NCBI RefSeq assembly: GCF_000194625.1
Contig: NC_015320.1
Location: 1,038,612-1,102,611, forward strand
Direction: 5' to 3'
Length of the DNA stretch: 64,000 nt
Source: Archaeoglobus veneficus SNP6
Lineage (GTDB): Archaea > Halobacteriota > Archaeoglobi > Archaeoglobales > Archaeoglobaceae
Shown: positions 6,755 through 55,160 of the stretch, piece by piece
Layout of the letters: every line of letters begins with the position of its first letter
Position numbering within the stretch: position 1 is the stretch's first letter
Notes under the pieces: model-generated
Told to the model about the DNA's origin: nothing
Seen by the model: only the letters and a program-made list of their open reading frames with translations
The model's database searches: none
Program-made: the position numbers and the translations under genes

Positions 6755-8110
6755 TCAGCCGAGAATCTTCTTTACGGCACTCATCCCGAGCTCGAGCAGT
6801 TCTTTAGCTCTCTTTTCAGTCTTCCCCTCTGCAAATATTCTGGCAATAGGTTCCGTTCCTGATGGTCTTATCAGCAGCCAGCCATCCTCATAGTCTATTC
6901 TTGCTCCGTCGGTGAAGCTCGCTTCTGGGAATTCCTCCTTCAATCCGTTAAGGAGTTTGAGCTTATCCTTGCATGGAACCTTCGTCTTAAACGTGTAGTA
7001 GCGCGGTATGTCTTTCACGAGTTCGGATAGCGGTTTGCCCTCAAGCGCCATGAGTTCAAGGACTTTTGCAGCACTCATCGCTCCATCTCTCGCAAGCAGA
7101 TGCTCGGGGAATATCAGCCCGCCGTTTCCTTCTCCACCAAAAACAGCCTTTGTTTTCAGCATCGTTTCTGCAACCACTGGCGAGCCAACGGGAGTGTATA
7201 CGATCTCTCCTCCTGCCTCTCTAACGGCATCCTCCACACATCGTGACGAAGACACGGGAGTAACAACGACGCCTCCTCCATTCTTCTCCACGTAGTACTT
7301 GGCCATGAGGGCAAGCATGACGTCTTCGCTAACAAATTGGCCTCTTTCGTCAACGAACGTCGCTCTGTCAGCATCACCGTCATGGGCTACGCCGAGATTG
7401 GCGTTCGTTTCTGCAACAACCTTCTTGAGCTGTTCTACGTTTTCCTCCACCGGTTCTGGATTTCTTGCAGGGAAGCGTCCGTCGGGATGGGCGTTTATAC
7501 TAATAACTGTGCAGCCGAGCTCTTTAAGAAGCTGAGGGGTCGTAACGCATCCAGCCCCATTTCCGCAGTCTACGACGACTTTAAACGCTTTTCCTGCTAT
7601 TTCTTCAACGCTGACTTTATCCTTAATTCCGTCAATATACTGCCTTTTGCAATCCTCGCTGTATACCTGGCCAACGTCTTGCCAGGAGGCTATGCGATAG
7701 GTTTTGCTCTTGTACATCCGTTCACTCTCTTCATCCATTTCCCTCGTAAATTCCCTTCCATCGTCTTGAATGAACTTTATGCCGTTGTACTCCCTCGGAT
7801 TGTGGCTCGCGGTAACAACAATGCCGCCTGTTATTTTTGGGTTCGTCTTGACGTAGTACTGCAACGCTGGAGTTGGAATGAGCCCTAAATCGATGACATC
7901 ACTGCCTGTAGAAGTTATGCCAGCAATTACAGCACTTTTGAACATGTGGCTCGAAATGCGTGCATCCATTCCGACAGCAATCCTACCACTTCTTATTGTT
8001 CCCATAACTCTGCCAAGGTTGAGGGCCATTTCGACAGTTAGTTCCTCATTCGCTATCCCTCGAACGCCATCGGTGCCAAAAAGCTCGCCAGCTCCACCAA
8101 TTCTTGCCAT
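6755..8110 (-). CDS. glmM: Phosphoglucosamine mutase (alpha-D-phosphohexomutase)
   Basis: 451 residues, full length for the family. The phosphoserine loop T-A-S-H-N-P (Ser about 102), the metal-binding loop D-G-D-A-D-R (about 240), the sugar-binding G-G-E-G-N-G (about 325) and the C-terminal phosphate loop R-P-S-G-T-E-P (about 415) are all intact. It interconverts glucosamine-6-phosphate and glucosamine-1-phosphate, or related hexose phosphates; archaeal members can be bifunctional with phosphoglucomutase activity, so the exact substrate is open. That would feed UDP-sugars for glycans. It is a single gene, divergent from the DUF257-like gene. Confidence 0.88.
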   Translation of the reverse strand: MARIGGAGELFGTDGVRGIANEELTVEMALNLGRVMGTIRSGRIAVGMDARISSHMFKSAVIAGITSTGSDVIDLGLIPTPALQYYVKTNPKITGGIVVTASHNPREYNGIKFIQDDGREFTREMDEESERMYKSKTYRIASWQDVGQVYSEDCKRQYIDGIKDKVSVEEIAGKAFKVVVDCGNGAGCVTTPQLLKELGCTVISINAHPDGRFPARNPEPVEENVEQLKKVVAETNANLGVAHDGDADRATFVDERGQFVSEDVMLALMAKYYVEKNGGGVVVTPVSSSRCVEDAVREAGGEIVYTPVGSPVVAETMLKTKAVFGGEGNGGLIFPEHLLARDGAMSAAKVLELMALEGKPLSELVKDIPRYYTFKTKVPCKDKLKLLNGLKEEFPEASFTDGARIDYEDGWLLIRPSGTEPIARIFAEGKTEKRAKELLELGMSAVKKILG

Positions 8111-8238
8111 GTTACTTCTGTAGTTTTCAGAGGTATTTTTCTTTTTGGATTCCTATGGTTTTTATTGGTCAGCTTTTCTTTAGTGATACATGGTTGGTGG
8201 TCCAGTCTGAGTGGCGGGTGTTATGGACGGGGAAGGTA

Positions 8239-54543: not shown

Positions 54544-54735
54544 GCATTAAGATTTAAAGAGCTAACAAATTCATTCAAAGCTAAAGAATCTTCAAAACAA
54601 GCTATTAAAGACTCGTCTGACGTAAAATACGCAATAATTTTAAGCAACAACGTAGAAAAAGCTCCGATAGTACTGAACGGAGGTAAAACCATGAAAATTA
54701 AGTTATTAAACGACAGCATATTAAAGGAATATTAA
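54544..54735 (+). pseudogene. Decayed coding fragment, source unknown
   Basis: 63 codons run open from just after a TAG (54541) to TAA 54733-54735 but have no start codon except an internal ATG at 54691. The reading is Lys/Ser/Asn-rich and AT-rich, unlike the neighbours, with V-K-Y-A-I-I-L-S-N-N-V and M-K-I-K-L-L-N-D-S-I-L. It looks like the end of a broken gene, perhaps from an integrated element. No family is recognised. Confidence 0.35.
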
Positions 54736-54901: not shown

Positions 54902-55021
54902 TGGTACCCCGGGATTCGAACCCGGAGGAGGCATTGTTAGCAAGGCCTTACTAACAACGGGCGGTCCCAGCCACCCTCAGTTAAATCTTAGGTTTTACCC
55001 TAAAATTCAACCTTCGCCTCC
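54902..55021 (-). ncRNA. Unidentified structured RNA ending in a T-arm-like hairpin
   Basis: From 55021 down: GGAGGC pairs with GCCTCC (54932-54927) and encloses three hairpins: 13 bp (55011-54980), 6 bp (54976-54959) and 10-12 bp (54957-54934). Then CCGGG-TTCGAAT-CCCGG (54925-54909), a perfect tRNA-type T-arm, and GGTACCA (54908-54902). Four G-U wobbles in the three hairpins pair only on the minus strand; on the plus strand they are A-C mismatches. TATA GTTAAATAG (55053-55045) lies 24-32 bases before 55021. No 5' partner for GGTACCA exists nearby, so it is not an ordinary tRNA. It matches no SRP or RNase P core that I know. Confidence 0.6.
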
Positions 55022-55044: not shown

Positions 55045-55053
55045 CTATTTAAC
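55045..55053 (-). promoter_or_regulatory. TATA box of the structured RNA
   Basis: GTTAAATAG on the minus strand, with a purine-rich stretch before it, places transcription start at about 55021, the first base of the closing stem. Confidence 0.5.
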
Positions 55054-55160
55054 TCTGCCGGTGTTTGAGCTTTGACGTGGCACACACCTCGTGAATATGT
55101 TCTTAGAAAACTTTATCATCGCTTACAAAGCATTCTGGGACTCTTACAATAAAGAGAGTA

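Follow-up and report, generated by a model that had tools for sequence, protein, structure and literature searches.

A Family of Noncoding RNAs with a Cloverleaf-Type Core in Archaeoglobaceae and Its Possible Role as a tRNA-Shaped Protein-Binding Scaffold

Introduction

What kind of RNA ends in a perfect T-arm motif and yet fits no tRNA? This question is raised by a locus in the genome of Archaeoglobus veneficus SNP6 (a single contig of 1,901,943 bases), which lies in a stretch of 64,000 nucleotides that was analyzed as a whole and is referred to below as the window (G000:C1:1038612-1102611). A sequence-only reading of the window had noticed a closing stem around three hairpins, followed by a T-arm and the letters GGTACCA, and had offered three explanations: a new class of noncoding RNA (ncRNA), one half of a split or permuted tRNA, or the remains of an attachment site. 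Guide RNAs aside, we know of few structured ncRNA families in archaea; the Hgc and Ssc RNAs of hyperthermophilic archaea are orphan structured ncRNAs that are independently transcribed and strongly folded. For the RNA in the window, we assign a probability of roughly one half to the reading that it belongs to a new ncRNA family of Archaeoglobaceae and would act in trans as a tRNA-shaped scaffold or decoy for a protein, the functional part of which we infer. The following sections set out the fold and the family, the relation to tRNA, and the alternatives that compete with this reading.

Results and Discussion

Fold and Family

The RNA is encoded at 55021–54902 of the minus strand and consists of a closing stem P1, the hairpins P2, P3 and P4, a T-arm-like hairpin and a short tail. 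All of its elements lie on this strand: The 5' strand of P1 (GGAGGC, 55016–55021) is followed by the junction J1/2 (GAA, 55013–55015), by P2 (54979–55012; 14 bp, loop GUAAAA), by the junction J2/3 (GA, 54977–54978), by P3 (54959–54976; 6 bp, loop CUGGGA) and by P4 (54933–54958; 11 bp, loop GGCC), after which the 3' strand of P1 (GCCUCC, 54927–54932) closes the core. The T-arm-like hairpin UCCGGG-UUCGAAU-CCCGGG (54908–54926) and the tail GUACCA (54902–54907), which has no pairing partner, complete the molecule. Its minimum free energy of −58.9 kcal/mol compares with a mean of −37.9 kcal/mol for shuffled sequences (z −5.4), and none of 200 shuffles folded as well, which bears out the arrangement of stems that had been claimed. 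The wobbles had been counted as four; there are about seven among 43 pairs, and the second part of that claim stands, as every one of them is G-U on the minus strand.

Relatives of the RNA are found both within the genus and beyond it. One sister genome (G019) contains a single copy (92% identity) at the corresponding site next to tRNA-Glu; another (G018) contains two copies elsewhere in the genome (97% and 91%), so that the sister copies span 91–97% identity; one of the latter, G018b, has no TATA box. A covariance model built from the four copies of this genus recovered about 17 further copies in other genera, and a second model, for which 21 cores served as input, was the kind of search of related genomes that the sequence-only reading had named as a check. 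It detected 22 copies (E-values between 4e-8 and 2e-22), which are spread over 14 of the 55 Archaeoglobaceae genomes, with up to four copies per genome (G014). Nothing else credible was detected by the second model in 394 genomes of the phylum (about 340 of them outside the family), and there was no credible copy in four further genomes of the class or in 26 genomes without hits, including G001, that were searched again with laxer filters. The distribution of the RNA is therefore patchy. One of the G014 copies, at 324939 (L174, G014:C1:324939-325033), is a recent duplicate from whose P1/P2 region about 16 bases are missing, and it looks like a decaying, dead copy; together with the missing TATA box of G018b, this indicates that some copies may be dead.

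An alignment of 21 distinct copies allowed us to ask whether the structure itself is maintained. Standard pairs occupy 95.5% of the stem cells, as opposed to 34–47% when the partners are slid by one to three columns, and two-sided compensatory changes occur in 22 of 32 pairs and affect all four helices. In P1, whose two strands were assessed together, 98% of the cells are paired and three of six pairs show two-sided changes; the corresponding values are 94% and seven of ten pairs for the shared basal part of P2, 96% and five of six pairs for P3, and 98% and five of eight pairs for the 8 bp of P4 that are shared. J1/2 and J2/3 are nearly invariant. The covariation score amounts to 0.505, compared to 0.314 for shuffles and 0.11–0.19 for slid partners, a gap to the slid controls that is partly expected since the structure was derived from the same alignment; this origin does not, however, account for the fact that each of the four helices shows two-sided changes. 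The cores of all copies fold with z-values from −2.8 to −11. Moreover, 90 G-U wobbles stand against 16 A-C mismatches across the 21 copies, which fixes the transcribed strand as the minus strand of the window and confirms the earlier suspicion that selection acts on a minus-strand RNA. Instead of random substitutions in sister genomes, which would have spoken against an RNA, we thus found the opposite: The stems are preserved by compensatory changes. By this comparative evidence the core of about 100–135 nt forms a four-helix junction of the cloverleaf type (P1–P4) under strong selection at the RNA level.

Promoter and Conserved Unit

The TATA box that had been reported upstream of the closing stem is present as TTAAATAG at 55052–55045 on the minus strand (55045..55052), 31 bases upstream of the start of P1, and the same element recurs with the same spacing in the sister copies G018a and G019. 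It is adjoined by a conserved upstream promoter block, CACCGGCAGAG (55053–55063, minus strand), which the window copy shares with G018a and G019, whereas the more distal DNA has diverged. In nearly every copy for which upstream sequence is available, a TATA box lies 27–31 bases before P1; by this sequence-based criterion of fixed spacing nearly every copy has an archaeal promoter of its own, and the locus is therefore a free-standing RNA gene. Within the window's genus, conservation extends from the promoter to just beyond GUACC and the flanks diverge; across the family the conserved unit runs from about −70 to +105, again between diverged flanks.

The copies of class II, which occur in the genera g3 and g5, carry an additional element at about −70, a 25-bp imperfect inverted repeat (GACAACAATGTAAAATTAAGTTGTC). 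With three mismatches allowed, this repeat has nine matches in eight genomes, all of them upstream of RNA copies, and it was found nowhere else in those eight genomes; since it lies solely 5' of RNA copies, it names no other regulated genes, and the idea of a regulon defined by this element was discarded. The two copies in G021 share 96.6% identity from −70 to +106, are unrelated outside this range and lie in different contexts, from which it follows that the promoter and the RNA together constitute the duplicating unit.

The option of a new ncRNA class gains strong support from the compensatory changes across genera, the spacing of the promoter and the comparison with known families: Among the 4227 families of Rfam, none matched the window copy or eight sources with relatives, and only neighboring tRNAs reached the threshold. 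Box C/D and H/ACA guide RNAs were considered and set aside, as there is no Rfam match, from which single novel guides could escape, and the window copy has neither an RUGAUGA box nor an ACA tail. A search of the open-licence literature yielded neither a description of this RNA nor any structured ncRNA family described for Archaeoglobaceae. With the Hgc and Ssc RNAs it shares a strong fold and, as its promoter predicts, independent transcription, but it belongs to a different lineage and is unmatched by Rfam. The RNA is thus categorically new at the level of the RNA family, while orphan structured RNAs are familiar as a kind.

Relation to tRNA

Because of the T-arm, we asked whether the RNA could be part of a tRNA, either as one half of a tRNA that is split or permuted or as a tRNA whose introns are unusual. 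The perfect T-arm motif followed by GUACCA is what one would expect in this case; however, a 5' partner with GGTACC is absent, the sister copy G018b reads GGCACC instead, and 17 of the 21 aligned family members keep the core without any T-arm. The covariance model of tRNA (RF00005) does not match the locus at E-values up to 5. No gene with a GGTACC acceptor occurs in the whole-genome tRNA set, in agreement with the earlier statement that GGTACCA lacks a partner, and no 5' half with TGGTACC was found. The 46 tRNA genes of the genome cover the expected set. The ARAGORN tally lacks tRNA-Asp and contains two tRNA-Tyr, one of which is an intron-bearing gene (G000:C1:36551-36655, L084) that, judged by its loop sequence and G73, reads better as tRNA-Asp(GUC) with another placement of the intron, and the tRNA complement accordingly appears complete. 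A tRNA in pieces is thus practically untenable as an explanation.

Alternatively, the locus could be an attachment-site remnant, in which the tRNA 3' end of an integrated element would have come to lie beside an unrelated hairpin region. The T-arm and the adjoining tRNA genes are in line with this, the genome contains what is likely a genuine example elsewhere (a 3' fragment of tRNA-Gly at 26.06 kb), and the T-arm part alone could have begun in this way, with a donor tRNA ending in GGGGTACCA. Yet the best match of the 26-nt 3' piece among the tRNAs of the genome is 19/26, and the entire 120-nt unit including the T-arm is kept at several positions in three genomes. As the core is under selection and no tRNA of the genome matches the 3' piece, such an origin is not supported for the whole RNA, and we regard this explanation as very improbable. 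The tRNA-Gly fragment itself lies outside the window (G000:C1:26036-26077, L003): Its 42 nt agree at 41 positions with the 3' part of tRNA-Gly(CCC) (8063–8133), and it is likely an attachment-site copy from an integrated element, 18 kb from that gene.

The T-arm is present in all four copies of the window's genus and absent in the 17 copies of other genera, whose tail after P1 is mostly rich in pyrimidines or A+T. It is therefore a late 3' addition in that genus (four of 21 copies) and cannot be taken as evidence that the RNA descends from tRNA. Since it is kept within the genus, where the loop UUCGAAU is invariant and the single substitution in the stem retains the pair, it probably does something there. 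As for the tail, G018b ends in GCACCU, and strict conservation thus extends neither to the palindrome nor to ACCA; a pairing of GUACCA with an upstream GTAC at about −20 was rejected because it is kept in neither G018a nor G018b.

The resemblance of the core to tRNA is one of shape. The helices follow the order of a cloverleaf, with P2 in the position of the D-arm, P3 in that of the anticodon arm and P4 in that of the T-arm, and as in tRNA (RF00005) no linker separates the last arm (P4) from the closing stem (P1); the window copy, in addition, carries a real T-arm motif. Unlike tRNA, the RNA has no acceptor or CCA end on its closing stem, no T-loop in P4, far longer arms and no variable region between P3 and P4, and it is not matched by the tRNA model. 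In class II, the loops of the first and third arms, P2 and P4, are complementary (ACGG:CCGU; ACG:CGU in L130), which corresponds to the position of the contact between D-loop and T-loop. This complementarity barely varies and thus cannot be backed by covariation, and neither class I nor the window's copy shows it; a contact between these loops as in tRNA is for these reasons only a suggestion. The GAA and GA junctions are suggestive of a kink-turn, a reading that was not adopted.

Other RNAs of tRNA-like form also differ from it. The mascRNA/menRNA group (RF01684) and further tRNA-like RNAs share the shape and, with respect to the window's genus, a T-arm near the 3' end; however, the RF01684 model matches only the neighboring tRNA-Glu and not the locus, the RNA has its own promoter, and its T-arm is located outside the closing stem rather than inside it. 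The yjdF riboswitch is reported to be another non-tRNA RNA with a tRNA-like overall shape (PMC9142559), but is a cis-acting leader of bacterial mRNA, whereas the RNA described here is not tied to any particular gene downstream.

Genomic Context and Mobility

The genes for tRNA-Glu and tRNA-Leu adjoin the locus, as had been noted. The coding fragment that had been called decayed is a C-terminal piece that lacks a start and stays open over about 61 codons (54550–54735, plus strand); none of 54 other family genomes contains a relative, and in Pfam it has a sub-threshold match alone. Across the family, the neighboring genes vary in kind, strand and distance and none is constant. This diversity counts against a cis-regulatory leader, and a cis-acting leader or riboswitch was dismissed because the RNA has no constant position upstream of any gene or gene class.

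The strongest rival to a cellular protein-binding RNA is that the RNA belongs to a small mobile or accessory unit, for instance as cargo of an integrative element with a role in maintenance or defense. Its patchy occurrence with as many as four copies per genome, the two G021 copies, whose high identity covers exactly the promoter and RNA in different contexts, and the fact that four to five of about 15 independent loci lie at most 700 bp from a tRNA gene (about 0.5 expected by simple arithmetic) are all compatible with such cargo. So are several neighborhoods. Some copies lie near an integrase-like fragment (judged by eye) and Mrr in G014, a transposase in G013, HNH and PD-(D/E)XK-like genes (the latter sub-threshold) in G019, or a TcmP-like gene in G012 and G021. 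Against it stand that terminal repeats, target duplications and a constant partner gene were not found, that plasmid, phage and viral collections contained no match, and that several genera have inherited one class I locus at an unchanged position, close to genes for UPF0182 and acetyl-CoA synthetase. On balance, we consider cargo rather unlikely.

Two further observations concern this context. A block that comprises the RNA gene, a TcmP-like gene (PADLOC candidate PDC-M41A) and a radical-SAM gene is shared at 88% by genomes of two genera (L121:162-2807 and L176:1-2642); its left boundary is sharp and falls immediately before the promoter element of the RNA. A pattern scan of viral contigs for the wider family returned no member; the single match of another pattern, in an IMG/VR contig (L088), was rejected because it is a common type of phage gene, tRNA-Tyr-like, with a D-arm that resembles P3 probably by chance. 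This gene (L088:7737-7815) has a long variable arm and was missed by ARAGORN, and its contig contains 21 predicted tRNA genes in 10 kb.

Possible Function

The protein-binding scaffold or decoy that we favor is suggested by the pattern of conservation: The helices and the junction letters (GAA, GA) are kept, while the loops differ between the classes. The compact, tRNA-shaped RNA would bind a protein, either as a component of a ribonucleoprotein or as an RNA that sequesters its partner; it would act in trans and be carried on an accessory gene unit. Promoter and RNA do duplicate together and appear in unrelated contexts. In the window's genus, the T-arm would most likely stabilize the 3' end or recruit a tRNA-handling factor.

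Class-wise conservation of the loops is likewise compatible with an RNA that base-pairs to a target specific to its class. A rival of this kind is a structured, trans-acting antisense regulator that would pair with its mRNAs through exposed loops or single-stranded tails. Such a regulator would be expected to have its own promoter and no fixed neighbor, as is the case here, and the P4 loop of class II, AACCGUA, is almost strictly kept. This retention can, however, be explained by intramolecular pairing between P2 and P4; furthermore, the loops are wholly different between the classes, the tails are unconserved and the genome that encodes the RNA contains no strong antisense match to it. A target-pairing regulator therefore appears quite unlikely, and a scaffold or decoy would be the more probable of the two.

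Conclusion

A bolder version of the protein-binding reading can be formulated, in which the RNA would be a lineage-specific mimic of tRNA that is not derived from tRNA, binds a tRNA-handling protein, gained its T-arm in one genus and is carried between archaeal genomes as a promoter-bearing unit; we put this forward as a tentative and rather doubtful proposal. For the biology of the Archaeoglobaceae, the family offers a fold that can be tested, a covariance model and a promoter that has an upstream element of its own, and it may represent a case of tRNA-like shape without tRNA ancestry, in which a T-arm was added to an unrelated RNA.
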